From Filimonas lacunae (GTDB lineage Bacteria > Bacteroidota > Bacteroidia > Chitinophagales > Chitinophagaceae): DNA of 64,000 nucleotides. Of the stretch, positions 48,483-62,871 are shown in pieces. The first letter of the stretch is position 1. Each line of letters opens with the position of its first letter. A model generated the notes under the pieces. The model was given only the letters and a program-made list of their open reading frames with translations, was not told the origin of the DNA and ran no database searches. The stretch covers positions 3,348,001-3,412,000 of the forward strand of contig NZ_AP017422.1 in NCBI RefSeq assembly GCF_002355595.1, read 5' to 3'. The position numbers and the translations under genes are program-made.

Positions 48483-48644
48483 GTGTAATACCCTATAGAT
48501 ACTAACCATACATTCAAGTGATTTTGTTCTCAATCTTTTAAATAGTATCTACGGCCGACACCAACTTATATACCAGCCCTAATTTTTTGGATAATATCAA
48601 CACTTTGCCTACCAAACCAAATAACTTTGCCTGCAAATTATTTT

Positions 48645-51600
48645 ATGAATGTAACTACTGCTGGTGTTAAAGGATACGAATATCAATACAAGGCAATTAT
48701 TGCCCTAGGTTTGCTGAATCTGCGTCAAAGTAGATCAATCTTTATTGAAAAAGATGGAGGTGAAGATGGACAGATCACCATCACACATAACGGGCAAGAC
48801 CATATTGTTGAGGTACAAATGAAAGATACAATAGCCGACATTTCGCTTTCAACTTTTGTGAAATGGCTATGTCATTTTCCGGCAAATTTAGCACAAGACA
48901 ACTTGCTTGATCGGGTTATAAATAAAAAACATACAGCCCTTATTATTACCTCTGGACGCTGTCTAGATGACGTACATCTTTTCAGCCAGAGGTTTAAAGA
49001 TTTGTCAAGCCATAATAGTTTAAAACTTACAAAAACATGGCAAAAAGATTTCTGTAAAGAGCTAGATAAAAATGGCTTTACAGGCTCTACTACATTACAG
49101 ACAAAACGCAACTCTTTCTGTAAGGCACAAGCTACAGACCTTCAAAACTCACTTACTCTAGAGCATGATCTTTCAAAGATACTTATCTGGGATGGATTGA
49201 CAGCTGATTCACTAGATAACGAAATTCTTCAGTTACTTAACAGGCTTTATCTTGTTCCACAGTCCGCAAGTGAAACCTTGTATTTTAAATTACTAGAAGC
49301 AGTCAAAGAATCTAGAGATCAAAAAACAGATCTTACTCCTATATTTAAAAAATTGATTAATGAATATGAAGGCGAAGCTCCAATAATCGACCCCAACTAC
49401 AAATCAAGGAGCGAAGAATCAACACTAACTCAACAACTAGAGATTCAGGGAGTCTTATTATTAAAGGGGGTAACACAAGCCGGCAAAAGCGAATTAGCAA
49501 AGAAAATTGCTGACTACTTCCACAAAAAAGGTTTTACTTATAAAATATGTACAGAGATTGAACACGCAGAACAATTCTTAAATCTAAATATTAAAGAAGA
49601 TAAAATATTAGTTATTGAAGATCCGTGGGGACACGTAGCAGTGGTAGATAATGGCCTGAACAAATGGAAAAAATTAGAAAATCTTATTAAAAACAAACAA
49701 CCTCAACATAAGATCATCGTCACCTCCCGCAACGAAATTCTTCAGGAGCTAAGCGCCGGGGGCTTTGTGACACAAAATCAGATAGCAGGCTATAATTGGG
49801 CTAACACTACTATTATAGAAAATAAAACATTAGATAGCTTTTGGCGAATATTTGCAGATGAAGCCAAGCTGAATAATAAAATAGTGAAGTTGATCGAAGA
49901 TCATATTTCTATCTGCCCTCCTGATCATCTTTTACAAATCGGCGAACTTCAATACCTGGCAAGGTATGATCAGGAAGATTTGGTAAACCAACCATTGGAA
50001 GGATTACTCCATATCGCTCGGCATAACTCCTCTCAAATAGCTTCAGACATTCAATCCAAAGATGAAGAAACAGCTACAATACTAGCGACATTGGCAATCT
50101 CCGTTGATACAATTACCGGCATTTCCCCCCAGGACTTAGGGTACCTGCTATCAGAGGACAACGTTGAATACGGAACCTTGCCTGAAATTAATTGGTCGAA
50201 TCAACGCTCGAAAAAGAAAGCATCCTATCCAGAATATAAACACTCATTTTCATTTACCACAGGAAATCAAAAAGCTCTTGAATATTTAGAAAGAAGGGGG
50301 ATTATAATTTTCAATGGTGTGCAATTTTTTTTTACACATCCTAATTTTTATGAAGCTGGTAAACAACTTATTACAACCGGAGGTACATTTCGTCAAACGA
50401 GGATCTTTAATTTCTATCGCAAAGCACTCAGTTTGCTTACTCCAAGAAACGTTATTTTGGCAGCCAAACACTTTGATTTCTTATCCAATGACACCAATAT
50501 TAAAGATAAATCAAAAGTATTTGAACTGGCAGTGCACGGCAAAAAATCTATTTTCCCAGCTGCTAGAGATATATGTCTAGTATTTCTCATTAAGCATATT
50601 TCCGATGTTGGAAATGAAATTGAAACCAGCATTATTAACACCCTTGAATATTATGATATAGACCCAATTGAAATTGCGTGGCATGAAGGTTTCCCATTTA
50701 TATCAAACGAAAATGAAGGCATATTACCTCATAGATATTACACTATTACAGATGAAGATTTTAAGGCAATAGAAGATAAGTTTAACACTGATCAAAAGGT
50801 TAGTCCCTTGGATGCGTGGCATTTTATCTTAGGCGCATCCAGCAGAAATAAATACATTTTAAACGACAAAATATTTAAATACCTCATTCAATATGACGAA
50901 GTATTTATTAGGAAAGAAGTTTGTCGCTCAATATTCATGCAAGGAAATTCAGCTAAAATCCAGCACTTATCTACTTTATACACTGATAATCATCCTTCAG
51001 TAGTATTCACTGCTATCAGGTATTCATTGAATAACTGGAATTTATTTGACCAGGAAAAGAAAAGCTTTCTATTGCCATTGATTAAAAAGGTAATAAAAAC
51101 ACAAGCGGTTTCCGTACGTACGAATCGTCTATTCAGTACGTTTAGTAAAGAACATACGCATGAAGCTATTAACTGGTCTTCATTAAATCCAGCAGAGACA
51201 AGAGAACTTTGGAACATATGGGGAGAGCTTTATCCCATTTACTTAGAACATCTACCATCCTCAGCCTTTTTAAACCCTGGAAGATTTGGAAACACAATTG
51301 ATGAAGCATTTAAATATTTAAGCAAACCCATAGGTATGGCGGTTTTAGACGCTTGGTATAACCGCATTGATTTCAAAATAACCAACAATGAAGTCTTAGA
51401 TGAATTCGAATTATGTATAGCTGATATTCTTTTGAATTTCACAGAGGATGACGCAGCTATTCGCTCGAAACTATTCAATAAACTTTTATCTTACAACGAT
51501 ACAAGTTTTATGGTATCTACCTTAAAGTGGACAGTAAGATATTGGGACAACCTGGCAGAATATGAGAAAAAACAAATACTCGACCTTGTTAAAGATGATA

Positions 51601-52493
51601 GAAATGATTCCAGGTGGATTAAAGCTGTTTTATTAACCTGCGAGCGCCCACCGGAAGAAATACAGAATGCTTTGTTCGGAGAATCTGTCTTTTTATTACC
51701 ACCAGAGGAATTTATCAAAAAACTTGACACTCAAATTTTATCAGATTCATTAGCATTTTATTTCGGAAAACCACAACCACTTTGGTGGCTTGCGACACAA
51801 AGAAAAAATATCAAATTCTGGCAATCAGTTATTACTTACATACTTGAAAATAATATAGCGCCTTTCTTTAAAAATTGTATGTCAGAATTAGTATTTGCTG
51901 GCTTGAACGGGTTTGGAGGAACATGGCCAGGTGGCATGGGTACTTGGAAGTTGGTCTGCAATAACACAACGGATAAAAAACTAGTTACAGAGGAACTCAT
52001 TTATGGAATGACAGAATGTTCTTATGTTTTGCACGACACAGCTGAGATGATTAAATTATTGCATGGACGTTATATCAAAGACGGCTCGGAAGAAGATTTC
52101 ATAAAACTACTTGAACAAAATATTGAAGCATTGCATTATTATGGGACATCCGAACTTTACGAAGTGCTTGGCAATGAAATTTTTGGAACACTATTAGCAA
52201 CAATTCAACCTGATGCAACGATAATTCAATCACTTGAAATTCTTGTTAAAGAAAACAACCAAACCCAATTAAAGGATGTTCTAAACGATTTAACAGAAAG
52301 AAAAAAAAGTGTAAGAATGAAAGCCACTATTCTCATATTACAAAAAAACTTGAAGAAATATGCAGACTATAGTTCCTTTGAAGAGCTGGTAATTAACCTA
52401 CCCGACAACATTCGTTGGATAGGAGAAAAAGAGAAAGAAAAATTTGAAAACTCACGCAAAGAAAAACTCCCAAATTGGATAGGAATTAACTAA
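48645..52493 (+). CDS. Nuclease-nSTAND NTPase, Avs/AVAST-like candidate anti-phage effector
   Basis: A 1282-residue protein from the ATG at 48645. Residues 8-165 look like a Cap4/dsDNA-endonuclease-type PD-(D/E)xK domain: 'GVKGYEYQYKAIIALGLLNL', then 'FIEKDGGEDGQITI' and 'DHIVEVQMKD' with the active-site E-x-K-like strand. Residues about 255-480 are an nSTAND3-like NTPase: Walker A 'GVTQAGKSE' (275-283), Walker B 'ILVIEDPWG' (321-329), sensor-like 'KIIVTSRNEI'. The C-terminal 750 residues are helical, repeat-like and presumably the recognition part. The gene is AT-rich compared with flanking genes and starts a defence-like island. Nuclease-STAND-sensor order matches Avs-type proteins; the trigger is unknown. 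Confidence 0.85.
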   Translation: MNVTTAGVKGYEYQYKAIIALGLLNLRQSRSIFIEKDGGEDGQITITHNGQDHIVEVQMKDTIADISLSTFVKWLCHFPANLAQDNLLDRVINKKHTALIITSGRCLDDVHLFSQRFKDLSSHNSLKLTKTWQKDFCKELDKNGFTGSTTLQTKRNSFCKAQATDLQNSLTLEHDLSKILIWDGLTADSLDNEILQLLNRLYLVPQSASETLYFKLLEAVKESRDQKTDLTPIFKKLINEYEGEAPIIDPNYKSRSEESTLTQQLEIQGVLLLKGVTQAGKSELAKKIADYFHKKGFTYKICTEIEHAEQFLNLNIKEDKILVIEDPWGHVAVVDNGLNKWKKLENLIKNKQPQHKIIVTSRNEILQELSAGGFVTQNQIAGYNWANTTIIENKTLDSFWRIFADEAKLNNKIVKLIEDHISICPPDHLLQIGELQYLARYDQEDLVNQPLEGLLHIARHNSSQIASDIQSKDEETATILATLAISVDTITGISPQDLGYLLSEDNVEYGTLPEINWSNQRSKKKASYPEYKHSFSFTTGNQKALEYLERRGIIIFNGVQFFFTHPNFYEAGKQLITTGGTFRQTRIFNFYRKALSLLTPRNVILAAKHFDFLSNDTNIKDKSKVFELAVHGKKSIFPAARDICLVFLIKHISDVGNEIETSIINTLEYYDIDPIEIAWHEGFPFISNENEGILPHRYYTITDEDFKAIEDKFNTDQKVSPLDAWHFILGASSRNKYILNDKIFKYLIQYDEVFIRKEVCRSIFMQGNSAKIQHLSTLYTDNHPSVVFTAIRYSLNNWNLFDQEKKSFLLPLIKKVIKTQAVSVRTNRLFSTFSKEHTHEAINWSSLNPAETRELWNIWGELYPIYLEHLPSSAFLNPGRFGNTIDEAFKYLSKPIGMAVLDAWYNRIDFKITNNEVLDEFELCIADILLNFTEDDAAIRSKLFNKLLSYNDTSFMVSTLKWTVRYWDNLAEYEKKQILDLVKDDRNDSRWIKAVLLTCERPPEEIQNALFGESVFLLPPEEFIKKLDTQILSDSLAFYFGKPQPLWWLATQRKNIKFWQSVITYILENNIAPFFKNCMSELVFAGLNGFGGTWPGGMGTWKLVCNNTTDKKLVTEELIYGMTECSYVLHDTAEMIKLLHGRYIKDGSEEDFIKLLEQNIEALHYYGTSELYEVLGNEIFGTLLATIQPDATIIQSLEILVKENNQTQLKDVLNDLTERKKSVRMKATILILQKNLKKYADYSSFEELVINLPDNIRWIGEKEKEKFENSRKEKLPNWIGIN

Positions 52494-52517
52494 ACCAACG
52501 TTCTAATTAAATAAATA

Positions 52518-52564
52518 ACAGCAGCTGTCTATTAAATAGCATTTTAATACTAGATAGCTGCTGT
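52518..52564. terminator. Bidirectional terminator between nSTAND and membrane-protein genes
   Basis: ACAGCAGCTGTCT (52518-52530) pairs with AGATAGCTGCTGT (52552-52564) with a single G-U, 21-nt loop, between two convergent genes. Confidence 0.7.
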
Positions 52565-52610
52565 ATTTCAATCAGAAAGATTATACTACTATCTTAAATT
52601 TTATTACAAG

Positions 52611-53105
52611 CTATTTATTACACCACCAAGGGCCAAAAGTGACAATTATAAACATGTATAATACATAGAAAATTCCCAGCAAAAAATACACAGCCCTCTT
52701 GTTTCTTAAAATACAAGCAAAATGCCCAATCCTAATCCCTTTATTATTTACGACAACTCTATTACCTTCTGCAAACAACTCGCCTCTATTTCTTAATAAC
52801 TGATATTCTTCCGGCTCTGCTTCCTTAGCTTGCTCCATTCTAAAATGGTAGTAATCTGAATTGCGAAGAAATGTACCAGTCCAAGGAATCATTAGAAGAA
52901 ATCCTAATATCCCAGCGATAAAGCAAGGCCAATTTGACAAAAATGTTAGCGGCTTTAAATTTGACACCATCTGACCTACAAAACCAAGAAGCAGAGTATT
53001 TGTAACGAGAAATGCAGAAAGAATTGTCCATAACATTTGGCCTTCATAAATCAGTAATTGCGTAGCCATTTCATATTTTTTAATTCGCCTATCGTAATCT
53101 TTCAT
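52611..53105 (-). CDS. Small three-TM membrane protein of the defence-like island
   Basis: A 164-residue protein. A cytosolic charged start ('MKDYDRRIKKYEMATQLLIY') is followed by three hydrophobic helices near residues 24-47 ('LSAFLVTNTLLLGFVGQMV'), 59-80 ('FIAGILGFLLMIPWTG') and 138-161 ('YFLLGIFYVLYMFIIVTFG'), with a soluble loop between the second and third. The 'YEGQMLWTILSAFLVTNTLL' stretch recalls RipA/SLATT-like small membrane proteins often found with nucleotide or nuclease defence genes. It lies 89 bp downstream of the SMEK gene on the same strand. It could be a pore-forming or anchoring partner; that is inference. Confidence 0.75.
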   Translation of the reverse strand: MKDYDRRIKKYEMATQLLIYEGQMLWTILSAFLVTNTLLLGFVGQMVSNLKPLTFLSNWPCFIAGILGFLLMIPWTGTFLRNSDYYHFRMEQAKEAEPEEYQLLRNRGELFAEGNRVVVNNKGIRIGHFACILRNKRAVYFLLGIFYVLYMFIIVTFGPWWCNK

Positions 53106-53194
53106 AAAGCATTCAATTAAGTTTATTTATTTTTACAATTATATTTGCCCCATCCAAGCAAATGGGGTATAATATTAAATTATTTCAAGCACCA

Positions 53195-54172
53195 TCATTC
53201 ATCTGCATCAAGAAGTGTAAAATCTAAAGCTACAAGAACCTTTTTTAGGCAGTCATTCTTTATCGCAAAATCAACAACACCTATCATCTCATCTTCAAAA
53301 TTTGTCGAAAAAGAGGTATCCCCTTCCTCAGGCTCACTAATAAGGCGTCTTTTAATCAAAATACTTAATTCTTCCTTAATTTCTTTTTCTGGAGATTTAA
53401 GCTTTCTCTTTAATTCATTATAATCTACAGTAAAATTGCCGTTATCGTTTTCGCCTAAGCTAATAAATATTTCAAGAAAGTCCCTCGTTATTCTAGGCAA
53501 TTGTTTAAGTTGCTTAAAAACATTCTTTACTTCATCAAATGAAGCATCCTCATAATCTAATAAATATTTAGTAGCATTATTGGGAACTGTATTAGGCGAC
53601 ACTTCAAGTTTATCAGCGAATGTTGTCGGAAATTCCCCCTTACCATTAGGCACTTCTATTTCCGTCAACACAACATTTAAATCTTTTTCAAATAGCTTTT
53701 TTAATTCATACAGTTCATCAAATTTCAATGAAATGATTTTTTTGGACAAATCACTAAAGTCCCATATATTATCGTTACTAAAGGAACACTTCTCTTTCAA
53801 GGCTTCATTGATAGCAGTGTAGGACGACTGTTTTTCTCCTAATATAAAAACAATTACTTTTTTGTATCGTTCTAGTTGTTCCCTAGTAATAGCATCTAAC
53901 GTCCTATTAATTTTATCAGATGTACTAGTAGAAGTTATTTGAAATGCTACACTTTTTTTAACATCTCCTAAATCAAGACCAGGTTCATTAGAGCGGTCTT
54001 GATTTAAATTTTTAACGTTATAATCCCAACATATATTTATTACATCTTTGATAAAATCTTCGCAAAACTTATTCAGATCCGTTAATCCCAACTGACAGCG
54101 AAAGCTAATTTTCCCCTGGAGAACACTTAGGTCATCCACAATCTTTCCAATGATAAATCCTCTTGTTAACAT
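53195..54172 (-). CDS. SMEK-domain protein
   Basis: A 325-residue soluble protein. The first 150 residues match the SMEK domain as I know it from prokaryotic defence proteins: 'LTRGFIIGKIVDDLSVLQGK', 'GLTDLNKFCEDFIKDVINI', 'RSNEPGLDLGD' and 'AFQITSTSTSDKINRTLD', the pattern of a degenerate restriction-endonuclease-like core with 'GLDLGD...AFQIT'. The remaining part is helical and ends in an acidic winged-helix-like stretch ('NELKRKLKSPEKEIKEELS', 'ILIKRRLISEPEEGDTS'). There is no STAND or NTPase domain, unlike most SMEK proteins. It lies between the HNH-TonB_C gene (174 bp upstream) and the three-TM gene, all on one strand. Confidence 0.78.
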   Translation of the reverse strand: MLTRGFIIGKIVDDLSVLQGKISFRCQLGLTDLNKFCEDFIKDVINICWDYNVKNLNQDRSNEPGLDLGDVKKSVAFQITSTSTSDKINRTLDAITREQLERYKKVIVFILGEKQSSYTAINEALKEKCSFSNDNIWDFSDLSKKIISLKFDELYELKKLFEKDLNVVLTEIEVPNGKGEFPTTFADKLEVSPNTVPNNATKYLLDYEDASFDEVKNVFKQLKQLPRITRDFLEIFISLGENDNGNFTVDYNELKRKLKSPEKEIKEELSILIKRRLISEPEEGDTSFSTNFEDEMIGVVDFAIKNDCLKKVLVALDFTLLDADE

Positions 54173-54346
54173 ATTTACTTCAATTTAATTCAACAATTAT
54201 CAAACCTACATTATTCCTAGTTTACAGCTCCAGAACTCCACATCTACTTAAGTGTATTTATCAAATTCAACCACATACAATAAAACATTTAAACAATTAC
54301 ATAATGCACAGTATATTTTAATAATGAGATTATTTACTTAGGTACG

Positions 54347-55555
54347 TTATTTTTCCCTTACTTGAAATGTAATCATCTGTTTCTGCCTATAATTGACGGC
54401 CTCTCCATTTTGAACTGCAGGAAACCATTTGGGAGAGTTAGATATGACACGGATAGCTTCTTGAGCAGAGCCGTATCCGGGATTATTTAGTGCAGTTACA
54501 TTTATAACAGAACCGTCTTGGGCTATTGAAAAGAGAAGCGTTACTGTATAATTTCCGGGAGGGGCACCATTTTCTATGGGAATTTCAGTATTTATATTAC
54601 TAGCAATAAATCTCCTCCACGCTTCATCTCCCCCCGGAAACTTAGCGGGTATTTTTCCTTTTTCTAAATCGGCACCATCCCTTTCTGCTACATTATCTAA
54701 AACGCTTATATCTTCTGAATATACTCTTCCATCCCATGCAGCTTCCCACTTATTTATATCTCCACCCGAATAATACAAAAGTGCCTTTATTAAATCAACC
54801 ACCATTAACTCAGCTTTTTGCATCGCTCCATATCTAACGAACCCGCCTTCTATTGACCCCATATTTTCAACGCCGGAGCGAGTCATTAATTTATAATGCC
54901 ATTTTTCAAATGCCGCAACACATTCACTGAAATATTGCCGTGGTTCATGACCGGAAAAATGTTCATCGGGATAAAATTTGCATAAAACAACATACACACC
55001 TTCATAAAAGTGCAATATGGAAGCTATGCCATCTGAATTTTCTGATAAAATTCCACTATCGATCTTTTCTTTAGCATACTTTAAAATTATTTGTCTGATC
55101 TCTGCTATTTTAAACACATAAGTAGTTAATTCTTTTGCTTGATCATCATTTAAAAATGGATTACAACTTATAGACTCTCTATCTAGATCAATAGTAGCTA
55201 TATCTTCCATTGGATTTAAGAGACTTACATTAGATGTTACACTTTGCAAAGAAGCTATACGATCTGTTTCATCCCTTCGATATTGTACTCGTTTTAGCCA
55301 GTTTGATTTATATTCCTTGATCGTTTGTTCACTATACCCTCTAGCGAAACCGCCCTTTTGATGGACCAGCGAATGACAGTTCAGACATAATACAACTAGA
55401 TTTTCGATGCTATTGTCTGCCTTGTTTTCATTAATATGATGAACCTGTGCCGGCTTGGCTGCTTCATTACAAATGCTGCAAGTATTAGACGAGTGGTAAA
55501 GTAGTTTAGCTGCTACCTCTTCATCAATAGGTATTCGTTCTATTTTTTTACTCAT
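54347..55555 (-). CDS. HNH endonuclease fused to a TonB C-terminal domain
   Basis: A 402-residue protein from the ATG at 55555. Residues 25-70 are an HNH nuclease with a zinc ribbon: 'TCSICNEAAKPAQVHHINEN', then 'ENLVVLCLNCHSLVHQ'. Residues 100-300 are helical with no known motif. The last 97 residues are a clear TonB C-terminal domain: 'FPGGDEAWRRFIASNINTEI', 'YTVTLLFSIAQDGSVINVTA', 'GSAQEAIRVISNSPKWFPAV', 'QNGEAVNYRQKQMITFQV'. No signal peptide or membrane helix is present, so this TonB_C would be in the cytosol, away from its usual periplasmic place. First of three - strand genes with SMEK and three-TM partners; divergent from a DUF3883 gene. I know of no described protein with this pairing. 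Confidence 0.85.
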   Translation of the reverse strand: MSKKIERIPIDEEVAAKLLYHSSNTCSICNEAAKPAQVHHINENKADNSIENLVVLCLNCHSLVHQKGGFARGYSEQTIKEYKSNWLKRVQYRRDETDRIASLQSVTSNVSLLNPMEDIATIDLDRESISCNPFLNDDQAKELTTYVFKIAEIRQIILKYAKEKIDSGILSENSDGIASILHFYEGVYVVLCKFYPDEHFSGHEPRQYFSECVAAFEKWHYKLMTRSGVENMGSIEGGFVRYGAMQKAELMVVDLIKALLYYSGGDINKWEAAWDGRVYSEDISVLDNVAERDGADLEKGKIPAKFPGGDEAWRRFIASNINTEIPIENGAPPGNYTVTLLFSIAQDGSVINVTALNNPGYGSAQEAIRVISNSPKWFPAVQNGEAVNYRQKQMITFQVREK

Positions 55556-55633
55556 TTTCAGCTTTTTTAGACTATACACTGCAACCGACTAAAGCAACTA
55601 ATTTCTCTTATTACAGTTACCATCTTTTGCAAG

Positions 55634-55653
55634 ACTATCCAAATTGTGATAGT
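55634..55653. promoter_or_regulatory. Inverted repeat in the divergent promoter region of the island
   Basis: ACTATC, eight bases, GATAGT, in the 177-bp gap between the HNH-TonB_C and DUF3883 genes. Position fits an operator for both; no regulator gene is in the island. A TAAATTTG (TAnnTTTG) box lies 13 bp before the DUF3883 start. Confidence 0.3.
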
Positions 55654-55732
55654 TAAGTTACTGATTTAGAAATATTCTCCCAACTCAAATAAAAGTATTG
55701 ACATTGAAACTTTAAATTTGAGAAAAACCCTT

Positions 55733-56923
55733 ATGAATTACCAAGCGCTGCATGAATTGATTAAACTTTACAAAGACAATTTCACCCGAATTAACCATCT
55801 GGAAATATATAAATGGGAGGCAGTTAAGCACTTCCAGGACCACTGGCATATAGATTCAGATGATTTTACCGGCATGCTTAAAAATGCGCTTTCTAAAGCA
55901 GGCAACCTTATGGATTCCGGCAAGTATTTTCCTAGAAGAATGATATTCCAATTTGCCGAGTCAGATCCGGAAACAGTGCGAACCTGCTTCAAAAATTTAT
56001 ATGACGAATCTAAAGATCTTTATGACCGATTGAATCAATTTAATACCGCTATTCGAGAAGTGTGGCAAACACATTATTCTAATCTTGATAATTATTATCA
56101 AGATCCACGCGCTCGTCTGGTTTACTTGAATTTCAGATACCCTGACACTTATTTCTTTTATAAGTTCAGAATGTTCCAAAAAGTAGCTAAGCGTATTGAA
56201 TACCCCTGTGTGCCAAAAAAGAGTAAGGTTCAAGACGTATTTCATTATACAAACATGTGCTATCAGATACTACATGAAATAAAAAAGGATAATGAACTTC
56301 TAATTATGCACCAAGAGCGCCTGAATGAACATTGTTATGCGGATCCTAAATTTCATATCCTTACTCAAGATATAATATATGCAGCAGATAAGCATTTAGA
56401 TAACTTTTCGGCTGTTCCGATTGAAAACTTTCACTTTGACTTAATCGACACTGATTATACAATTTTCGATTCACAACCATCTTTTACAGGTCGATTTGTA
56501 GATTATCAAGGCAGACAAGCAGAAATGAGCCGGATTGGTCTATTAGGAGAACAATATGTCTTTGAGAGAGAATGCAATTTAATAGCAAGCTACAACATAA
56601 GAAAAAAGCCAAGACACGTCTCTGTGGAGGATGGTGATGGATTAGGGTTTGACATATTATCTTACAACAGCGATGGTAGCGAGAAATACATTGAAGTAAA
56701 GACTACCACCGGTCATTTTCATACTCCATTCTATATCACAAGGACAGAGTTAAACAAAAGCAGGGAACACCCCAATAAATATTGGCTTTATAGGGTATGC
56801 AACTTTAATGAAAGCGAAAAAAAAGCGAGCTTAATGCAGATTCCAGGTGATCTATCTCCATTTTGCGAAAATCCCAGTCAATACCTTGTAAAACTATCCC
56901 CTCAGCATTCATCCATCACTTAG
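55733..56923 (+). CDS. DUF3883 (NOV-C-like) PD-(D/E)xK-type protein
   Basis: A 396-residue protein from the ATG at 55733. The first 260 residues are mainly helical with no recognised domain. Residues about 265-375 are a DUF3883/NO VEIN C-terminal-like domain with a restriction-endonuclease core: Glu in 'IGLLGEQYVFEREC', Asp in 'HVSVEDGDGLGFDILSYN' and the E-x-K strand 'EKYIEVKTTTG', followed by 'FYITRTELNKSREHPNKYW', the family's conserved C-terminal block. DUF3883 is common in phage-defence and DNA-handling proteins. AT-rich like its neighbours; closes the island on the right. Confidence 0.85.
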   Translation: MNYQALHELIKLYKDNFTRINHLEIYKWEAVKHFQDHWHIDSDDFTGMLKNALSKAGNLMDSGKYFPRRMIFQFAESDPETVRTCFKNLYDESKDLYDRLNQFNTAIREVWQTHYSNLDNYYQDPRARLVYLNFRYPDTYFFYKFRMFQKVAKRIEYPCVPKKSKVQDVFHYTNMCYQILHEIKKDNELLIMHQERLNEHCYADPKFHILTQDIIYAADKHLDNFSAVPIENFHFDLIDTDYTIFDSQPSFTGRFVDYQGRQAEMSRIGLLGEQYVFERECNLIASYNIRKKPRHVSVEDGDGLGFDILSYNSDGSEKYIEVKTTTGHFHTPFYITRTELNKSREHPNKYWLYRVCNFNESEKKASLMQIPGDLSPFCENPSQYLVKLSPQHSSIT

Positions 56924-60828: not shown

Positions 60829-61227
60829 ATGGCTAAAAACAGTCAGATCAAGAGTTTTAAAAACGTAATTGGGGTGAAGCTGAGTGATGATCCCCGTATC
60901 AATCATTACGAAGTAAGTTTTCGGCGCTGGCTGGCGCGTGAGATTCATTATGGACGCGTTAGCGTAGCTCAGGCAACGGTTGAATTGAGTATAAGCGACA
61001 CACAGATTCGTTTGATTTGTAAGCAATATCCTCCTGAGGTAGTAACTTTACCTGCAATGACTGAAGCGGAAAAAAAGAAGCTGGAAGAATTAGAGAAGCA
61101 GGTAAAACTGCTTCAAAAGCAGCTTGAACACGCTGAGATCAAGAATATTGCCCTCGAAACGCTCATTGATGTAGCGGAAAATGATCTCAAAATTCCCATC
61201 CGAAAAAAGCCTGGTGCCAAACAGTGA
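60829..61227 (+). CDS. IS3-family transposase OrfA
   Basis: A 132-residue helix-turn-helix protein: 'INHYEVSFRRWLAREIHYGR', 'VSVAQATVELSISDTQIRLI' and the leucine-zipper-like 'EKKKLEELEKQVKLLQKQLE' used for dimerisation. Its stop codon overlaps the orfB GTG start by 4 nt. The full OrfAB transposase arises by a -1 frameshift at 61203-61209. Confidence 0.93.
   Translation: MAKNSQIKSFKNVIGVKLSDDPRINHYEVSFRRWLAREIHYGRVSVAQATVELSISDTQIRLICKQYPPEVVTLPAMTEAEKKKLEELEKQVKLLQKQLEHAEIKNIALETLIDVAENDLKIPIRKKPGAKQ
61203..61209 (+). other. Programmed -1 frameshift slippery site (orfA to orfB)
   Basis: A_AAA_AAG lies in the correct phase of orfA (CGA-AAA-AAG). A -1 slip enters the orfB frame without meeting a stop, five codons before the orfB GTG. 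This is the standard IS3-family recoding signal; stimulating structure downstream was not modelled. Confidence 0.75.
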
Positions 61228-62183
61228 ACCTGCTTACAGAACTGCACCCTCATATTGGGGTAGGTCAGTTTTGTACAGTGTTTGGCAAGACCCGTCAAGC
61301 CTGGTATTATGCTACACGCACCCAGGCTGAGCAGGAAATGACAGATTCTATTGTAGTAAAAATGGTGAAAGAAATACGGGAGGAACAACCTCGCTTGGGT
61401 ACCCGTAAGCTCTACTATCTGTTGGAACCTCAGCTACAGGCGCATGGAATTAAAATGGGCCGTGATGCTCTATTTGATATGCTGGAACGCTATGACCTGC
61501 TTATCCGTCATCGCAGACGGCGTGCTATTACCACCGATAGCAACCATCCTTACCGTAAATATGATAACTTAATACAGCACTTGATATTAACAGGTAAAAA
61601 TCAACTTTGGGTTAGTGATATTACCTATCTGCGAGTATCAGAAGGCTTTTGCTACCTGAGTCTTGTAACTGATGCTTTTAGTCGTAAAATAGTTGGCTAC
61701 CGCCTGTGGCCTAATCTGGCAGCGCGTGGAAGCATAGAAGCGCTAAACATGGCTTTAAATGAACAGCAGCCTGGGCGGAACATGCTCATACACCATTCTG
61801 ATCGCGGTGTACAATACTGCTGTTCTGATTATGTTGGACAGTTGCAAAACTATCAGATCAATATTAGTATGAGTCATAAAGGAGATCCCTATCAGAATGC
61901 AATAGCAGAGCGGGTTAACGGTATTCTAAAGCATGAATATAGTCTTAATAAAGAGTTTGAAGATCTAGTTCAGGCCACCAAAGCTGTACAGGCTGCCGTA
62001 AACTTATACAACAGCCGCAGACCCCATGATAGTTTAAGTTATCTGACGCCGGACCAGGCACATGAACTAACCGGAATAATCAAAAGGAACTGGCGGACTT
62101 ACAGTAAGCATATTATTAAGAATCAGGACTTAGAAGTAAGCAACGTAGGATTAGGGAAGCTCTGTAACGCCAAACAGGATTAA
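61224..62183 (+). CDS. IS3-family transposase OrfB (DDE integrase domain)
   Basis: A 319-residue protein with GTG start. N-terminal HTH_21-like part ('EEQPRLGTRKLYYLLEPQL') and an rve integrase core with the catalytic triad: Asp in 'LWVSDITYLRVSEGF', Asp in 'MLIHHSDRGVQYCCSDYVGQ' and Glu in 'NAIAERVNGILKHEYSLN'. 'YNSRRPHDSLSYLTPDQAHE' is the family's closing motif. Made mainly as the OrfAB fusion. All residues are present, so the element looks active. Confidence 0.94.
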   Translation: MNLLTELHPHIGVGQFCTVFGKTRQAWYYATRTQAEQEMTDSIVVKMVKEIREEQPRLGTRKLYYLLEPQLQAHGIKMGRDALFDMLERYDLLIRHRRRRAITTDSNHPYRKYDNLIQHLILTGKNQLWVSDITYLRVSEGFCYLSLVTDAFSRKIVGYRLWPNLAARGSIEALNMALNEQQPGRNMLIHHSDRGVQYCCSDYVGQLQNYQINISMSHKGDPYQNAIAERVNGILKHEYSLNKEFEDLVQATKAVQAAVNLYNSRRPHDSLSYLTPDQAHELTGIIKRNWRTYSKHIIKNQDLEVSNVGLGKLCNAKQD

Positions 62184-62424: not shown

Positions 62425-62722
62425 ATGGTGATGAGTCTGGCTACAGTGGGAATCATCCCCACTACAGTGGCGATCAGTCTGGCTACTGTGGCGATCATCC
62501 CCACTACTGTGGCGATCAGTCTGGCTACTGTGGGGATCATCCCCACTACTATGGCGATCAGTCTGGCTACTGTGGGGATCATCCCCACTACTATGGCGAT
62601 CAGTCTGGCTACTGTGGGGATCATCCCCACTACTATGGCGATCAGTCTGGCTACTGTGGGGATCATCCCCACTACTGTGGCGATCAGTCTGGCTACTGTG
62701 GGGATGATCCCCACACATTCCC
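62425..62722. repeat. 42-bp tandem repeat array (minisatellite), right part
   Basis: Seven units start at 62429, 62471, 62513, 62555, 62597, 62639 and 62681, exactly 42 bp apart. Each contains GATCAGTCTGGCTACTGTGG followed by ATCATCCCCACTACTATG or a close variant; the GTGGGGAT-C-ATCCCCAC part is a hairpin-forming palindrome repeated in most units. Since 42 is a multiple of three and no stop occurs, several frames on both strands stay open, but no protein is likely. It lies between convergent genes. Confidence 0.92.
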
Positions 62723-62871
62723 CGCCAGCCGGGGAAGTTATCCCGATCATCCGTACAGCTATTGCATTCATCGTCCCAGATATACATATCAACCGTATAG
62801 CACAACCACTCCACGGGATAGCTAAGTGAGCAATTCGTCTGTTCGGATGGCTTAACAGCGTTGCTATGCCG

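Follow-up and report, generated by a model that had tools for sequence, protein, structure and literature searches.

An open reading frame in the window (the 64,000-nucleotide stretch of the Filimonas lacunae genome analyzed here) encodes a predicted cytosolic protein, P0001, composed of a zinc-ribbon HNH nuclease module, an orphan helical middle domain and a genuine TonB C-terminal domain (TonB_C). The HNH+TonB_C fusion is recurrent, with two examples found, P0001 and a shorter protein (P0006), each in one genome. What is new here is an N-terminal HNH effector, a known plan, with a captured TonB_C as its C-terminal domain. The reading that we favor, tentatively and at somewhat less than an even chance, is that P0001 is a Cap5-like nuclease effector of the cytosol in which TonB_C would act as the C-terminal sensor (bait or switch) behind a 275-residue HNH+helical protein. 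The gene, the domains of its product and the neighboring genes are listed below (L043 and L044 are loci in two other genomes).

54347-55555, minus strand: hnh-tonB_C gene encoding P0001 (ATG start, 402 amino acids)
55262-55555, minus strand: HNH nuclease module of P0001, residues 1-98 (Pfam HNH, AlphaFold2 model and Foldseek)
54710-55261, minus strand: middle helical domain of P0001, residues 99-282 (in other genomes, found only at L043 and L044)
54347-54664, minus strand: TonB C-terminal domain of P0001, residues 298-402 plus the stop codon (captured, from a canonical-type TonB source)
53195-54172, minus strand: SMEK-domain protein (SMEK_N 8e-41, over cut-off)
52611-53105, minus strand: 3-TM protein (8xMP match below cut-off, 24.4 of 30 bits)
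48645-52493, plus strand: nSTAND3 NTPase of 1282 amino acids, in the same AT-rich island
55718-56923, plus strand: NOV_C/DUF3883 protein, the divergent neighbor (NOV_C 7.5e-20, over cut-off)

The HNH region of P0001 extends over residues ~20-66, of which residues 26-66 match Pfam HNH with 23.5 bits (cut-off 21.4); the protein also reached 24.9 bits against HNH_3 (cut-off 24.8). Eight residues (C26, C29, H39, H40, N52, C57, C60 and H61) were invariant across the three sequences of P0001, L043 and L044. We take the CxxC pairs to be zinc binding and the His/Asn/His set to be catalytic. The first-pass annotation had described a zinc-ribbon HNH nuclease domain here, and the Pfam scores and the intact Cys/His/Asn set agree with it; the module appears intact and P0001 is a predicted DNA cutter. 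Foldseek matched the N-terminal half to Cap5 HNH-SAVED structures (E about 1e-2). Among defense profiles, the HNH region matched a PADLOC ZorE profile (1.4e-8) and the HNH half also matched endonuclease-effector profiles; the matches to PADLOC SAVED_HNH profiles (residues 31-95 and 43-92) were confined to the HNH part. In L062 an HNH module of the same kind is followed by TPR repeats, with both domains over cut-off, and in L045 and L046 by sequence that no Pfam model matches. Judged by these sequences, the HNH module is combinatorial, its C-terminal part changing among relatives.

At the other end of the protein, residues 337-398 match Pfam TonB_C (35.9 bits, E 1.1e-8, cut-off 24.6), and the NCBIfam tonB_Cterm model gave 15.3 bits, under its own cut-off of 27.1. 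Foldseek aligned the C-terminus with the TonB C-terminal domain 6i97_D (E 2e-4), the sole match below 0.001. The TonB C-terminal domain proposed from the sequence at first pass was therefore recovered by Pfam and, in a check by structure prediction, by AlphaFold2 and Foldseek, which do give TonB_C. The closest TonB_C domains are found in frames of ordinary TonB type, ~280 residues long, with the best matches headed by the host's own genus (59-60% identity) and the TonB of the own genome at 58%. An ExbD gene lies beside tonB both in the own genome (L003; 71.5 bits) and in L010 (76.1 bits). TonB homology in the fusions begins 8 (P0001) and 11 (P0006) residues ahead of the PGG motif, and the last strand region, YRQKQ-ITFQV, is retained in P0001.

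P0001 contains no hydrophobic segment. Its 19-residue mean hydropathy peaks at 1.34 (0.97 in the first 90 residues), whereas 12 close canonical TonBs (one frame each from L003, L068-L072 and L074-L079; L073 was masked) have their peak near residues ~36-39, with values of 2.43-3.23. This is in line with the earlier observation that a membrane segment is missing. Second TonB frames in L068, L071 and L072 peaked at 1.58-2.03, and there were a few further TonB frames without a hydrophobic segment, for example in L035 and, as cut frames, in L081 and L087. The L035 frame (L035:841-1812, G383), of up to 324 residues, carries TonB_C and as called lacks a clear hydrophobic segment; its start may be misplaced. 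For P0001, a GTG start upstream would add only 8 residues, with no hydrophobic stretch among them, and the proteins of L043 and L044 likewise begin with the HNH and have no hydrophobic segment, which speaks against a misassigned start. The AlphaFold2 model of P0001 (11 aligned sequences) had a mean pLDDT of 58.8 overall and a pTM of 0.32; by block, the HNH was mostly at about 70-84, TonB_C mostly at 78-92 and the middle mostly below 50. A sequencing or frame artefact was judged unlikely, given that the upstream DNA lacks the N-terminal half of a TonB and that a second fusion is known.

Homologs of residues 2-275 of P0001 were found in two genomes besides its own among the 394 genomes of the family searched, at L043 (35% identity) and L044 (32%). 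These proteins, of 276 and 275 residues, stop where the TonB part of P0001 starts; TonB_C is thus a C-terminal addition to a pre-existing HNH+helical protein. In a search of 395 genomes of the phylum the middle domain was recovered only as its own copy, and it had no sequence match in the PDB and no relative in IMG/VR; a hit in G603 (E 0.01) was dropped, as the 274-amino-acid frame looks unrelated. Its single-sequence model was poor (mean pLDDT 43.8). The neighbors of L043 include an HD-CE/NACHT gene and one whose NERD match falls below cut-off; near L044 lie a gene matching DUF2971 below cut-off and one for a small protein, membrane-bound by appearance.

Full-length homologs of P0001 besides its own copy were absent among the matches listed from 395 genomes of the class, a search in which about 4 candidates were scored per genome. 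In the plasmid and phage collections no match spanned 80% of P0001, a pattern search of IMG/VR gave no match, and a search of genome contigs with P0001 returned a single locus, TonB only. The flanks of the locus were compared with the other two genomes of the genus to look for an empty site; only one of them gave a match, limited to 128 bp on the right. The Bacteroidota-type promoter pattern occurred 3 times in the window, where 2.7 matches would be expected by chance, and none of these precedes the hnh-tonB_C gene.

The gene lies in an island (48627-56923) with 34.7% GC, compared to 48.5% in the left flank and 44.3% in the right. The earlier description of an AT-rich island with defense-type genes holds, with SMEK_N and NOV_C (presumably the former DUF3883) over cut-off and the 3-TM gene present. 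ExbB and ExbD genes were absent from the four island neighbors scanned (nSTAND3, 3-TM, SMEK and NOV_C), and repeats flanking the island were, among the matches listed, weak and of chance type only. The proposed partnership with SMEK, 3-TM and DUF3883 genes fared less well: L043, L044 and P0006 have other neighborhoods, and these three genes are thus not obligatory partners. The ~180-residue middle domain of P0001 and the large nSTAND3 gene of the island had gone unmentioned at first pass. SMEK and HNH domains also occur in short-Argonaute-associated proteins, according to a published study (PMC10810196). The window's nSTAND3 NTPase (48645-52493) has an uncharacterized N-terminal part and is likely a defense NTPase. 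A separate locus, L050:1339-3207 (G1091), encodes a fusion of HNH with an nSTAND NTPase, both over cut-off, the NTPase being of the same family as that of the window neighbor gene.

The second fusion, P0006 (L053 / L124:9502-10107, G879:C17), was found while examining HNH relatives, and comes from genus g401, in the same family as the window's host. In its 201 residues an HNH of another subfamily (22.3 bits) is followed directly by TonB_C (68.4 bits), both over cut-off, with no middle domain and no hydrophobic segment (peak mean 1.06). TraJ-/TraM-type genes lie on one side of it and ORF6N and tyrosine integrase genes on the other, and P0006 is probably carried as cargo by a conjugative element. 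The seven best matches of its TonB_C, at 59-62% identity, form a canonical TonB group distinct from that of P0001, and this group includes its own genus (g329 first, then g401). No third HNH+TonB_C protein appeared among 26 matches in 24 genomes when the P0006 HNH was searched against 394 genomes of the family (counts that include its own genome and P0006 itself). Among 51 distinct HNH-matching frames at the fetched loci, only P0001 and P0006 carried TonB_C; the HNH model behind this count was built from 18 sequences including both fusions, and accepts loose matches. Two phage hits (H42 and H43) whose alignments reach the HNH part of P0006 were rejected, being TonB-like frames in which no HNH was matched. 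That HNH+TonB_C recurs in a second protein makes it more plausible that the pairing is useful.

Comparison of the two TonB_C domains pointed to separate origins. With TonB profile A, P0001 scored 137.2 and P0006 71.9; with profile B, the scores were 63.2 and 136.4, and the two domains share 38% identity. In a 58-row tree of canonical TonBs and the two fusions, a joint P0001/P0006 clade was rejected (p-AU 0.0083) and P0006 formed a branch with the B TonBs at full support (100). A broader tree of 108 rows, with few columns, did not reject a joint clade (p-AU 0.397) and is thus compatible with a common capture; the tree rows exclude TonB_C frames that had fewer than 85 residues, scored less than 40 bits or contained masked letters. 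P0001 has no settled exact position among TonBs in these trees. Because of the HMM scores, the identities and the 58-row tree, we consider that TonB_C was probably captured separately in P0001 and P0006. A TonB of the P0001 type (E 1e-30 or better) was counted by eye in 64 of 195 genomes and one of the P0006 type (E 1e-34 or better) in 20 of 195, the respective own host included in each, at E cut-offs that were picked post hoc with the tables already seen. Given these counts, the match of each fusion to the TonB type of its own host, at the level of the TonB clade only, is suggestive and not compelling.

Both captured domains depart from canonical TonBs mainly at variable positions. The TonB_C of P0001 departs at 5 of 36 conserved versus 34 of 61 variable columns (p 3.4e-5), and that of P0006 at 9 of 49 versus 25 of 45 (p 1.8e-4), as measured against 32 and 24 hand-chosen canonical rows, respectively. 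Four of the five conserved-column departures in P0001 are Ile/Leu/Val exchanges. Canonical TonBs left out singly showed on average 0.97 and 0.83 such departures (maxima 5 and 6), so that P0001 ties the worst canonical row and P0006 lies above it. The fusion domains also have long branches, of 0.79 and 0.78, where the median end branch is 0.19. The alignments thus show constraint on the captured domains, though below that of typical TonBs; some of it may be older than the fusion, and the long branches together with the nine departures of P0006 could reflect relaxed constraint. Base composition was uninformative as a clock for the fusion, since GC3 was 0.29 in the TonB part of P0001 and 0.26 in the remainder of the gene, while two TonB_C controls from the own genome gave 0.37 and 0.30.

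The nearest known plan is that of Cap5, a CBASS effector with an N-terminal HNH nuclease and a C-terminal part that senses the signal. The N-terminal HNH is common to both (fold match E about 1e-2); Cap5, however, carries SAVED C-terminally, where P0001 has TonB_C and no SAVED match in Pfam, and no CBASS CD-NTase cyclase gene was recognized among the four island neighbors scanned beside P0001. The likeness to ZorE of type II Zorya is confined to the HNH region, with ~30-65 matching residues in the second half of the profiles, and no Zorya match was found among the scanned neighbors. Proteins combining HNH with TPR (L062), nSTAND (L050) or helical parts (L043/L044) share the N-terminal HNH with P0001, and none has TonB_C. 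With the TonB energy transducer P0001 shares the C-terminal domain, at 58-60% identity to the TonBs of its own genus; the transducer has an N-terminal membrane anchor where P0001 has the HNH, and ExbD adjoins tonB in L003 and L010, whereas P0001 has no ExbD neighbor. Nuclease bacteriocins have the nuclease at the C-terminus, receptor and translocation parts before it and an immunity gene beside them. The HNH of P0001 is instead N-terminal, and the gene is followed by the SMEK gene in the same direction, with no frame of at least 30 amino acids between them on that strand.

The earlier statement that no described system pairs HNH with TonB_C agrees with our literature searches, where none of the papers listed dealt with the two domains together. 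Only one of them (PMC5536347) contains both 'TonB_C' and 'HNH' as words, and TonB_C serves there to define Ton operons. A 2025 paper (PMC12419801) describes two proteins with TonB-C, one of them with 2 TM segments and the other secreted and bearing an outer-membrane barrel.

If TonB_C is the sensor of P0001, it would bind a cytosolic partner, either a TonB-targeting protein of an intruder or a TonB-box-like peptide, and binding would bring the HNH domains together, or release them, to cut DNA. The phage protein or receptor fragment proposed as trigger at first pass is a candidate only. In the simplest reading, a TonB_C in the C-terminal position of an HNH effector would give the nuclease a new binding specificity. 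An integrated bait, or decoy, is the version of the switch that we favor, because both fusions carry their own host's TonB type. The idea resembles the integrated decoys of plant NLRs, in which a host target is copied into an immune protein to serve as bait; there is no evolutionary relation between them and P0001, and a bait role in the bacterium is an inference. Plant NLR receptors with integrated decoys are the subject of PMC12856790 and PMC8813719. Stated in full, at least two separate captures of the own-lineage TonB domain would have produced integrated decoys, with DNA cutting triggered by a TonB-seizing protein of an intruder in the cytosol, and we regard this complete scenario as unlikely. 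A narrow literature search found no cytosolic protein that attacks TonB.

The main rival to the sensor reading is pairing without sensing, which we consider somewhat unlikely. TonB_C would then be a mere compact pairing or oligomerization domain for the HNH, and sensing would fall to the middle domain or to partner proteins. TonB C-terminal domains can dimerize, and PDB matches of the TonB domain include 1ihr/1qxx and 1u07, some of which are presumably dimers. The sparing of conserved TonB_C columns is consistent with pairing, and the middle domain occurs without TonB_C in L043 and L044, so it is able to serve alone. P0006, however, has no middle domain, leaving TonB_C as the only candidate sensor there, and generic pairing would leave unexplained the use of the host's own TonB type each time. 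A neutral or decaying fusion, in which recombination set the 3' end of a tonB in frame after an HNH gene and left an idle tail, is improbable. It would accommodate the occurrence of each fusion in one genome only, the unfused L043 and L044, the long branches and the departures of P0006 at 9 of 49 conserved columns; yet the same domain pair was fused in frame twice, with TonB homology from 8 and 11 residues ahead of PGG onward, conserved columns were spared in both proteins, and a divergence of ~40% from host TonBs argues against a fresh accident with the present host tonB. An idle tail is therefore less likely in view of recurrence and constraint. Highly improbable is a nuclease aimed at precursors of TonB-dependent receptors or at an incoming protein with a TonB box (e.g., a bacteriocin) and not at phage: the nearest fold match, 6i97, is a TonB bound to the receptor FoxA and P0001 keeps the YRQKQ-ITFQV strand region, but nascent TonB-dependent receptors are abundant in Bacteroidota and would trigger the nuclease constantly and harmfully, and no bacteriocin part was evident beside either fusion among the frames listed.

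Should TonB_C indeed be the sensor, the C-terminal position of an HNH effector can hold a captured copy of a host target, and intruder proteins, so far unknown, that attack TonB from inside the cell would be implied. A direct test is possible, since the binding target of the trigger can be predicted from the bait, and host surface-machinery domains fused to nucleases without export signals provide a search rule for more systems. If the decoy reading is true, P0001 would be a bacterial counterpart to the integrated-decoy receptors of plants.

Related domains were also observed in viral records. An IMG/VR contig classed as viral (L127:3001-4005) encodes an HNH module 44% identical to that of P0001, followed by a part that by eye is helical and repeat-like; its only Pfam match is HNH_3. 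A canonical-looking TonB (TonB_C 78.4 bits, with an N-terminus hydrophobic by eye) is encoded at L159:1446-2249 in a 735-kb record labelled as uncultured phage (LR756501.1), and LR756503.1 has the same TonB match at the same position. On four further IMG/VR contigs classed as viral (L153-L156) there are genes for TonB-type proteins whose N-terminus, judged by eye, includes a hydrophobic stretch; these are either phage-borne TonBs or host contamination. Elsewhere in the window, positions 60829-62183 hold a transposase gene pair, the second frame with rve integrase-core matches, that is probably an IS3-type element, and positions 62425-62752 hold a tandem array, best described as 42-bp units (6.9 copies, 95% matches), in which several frames are open.
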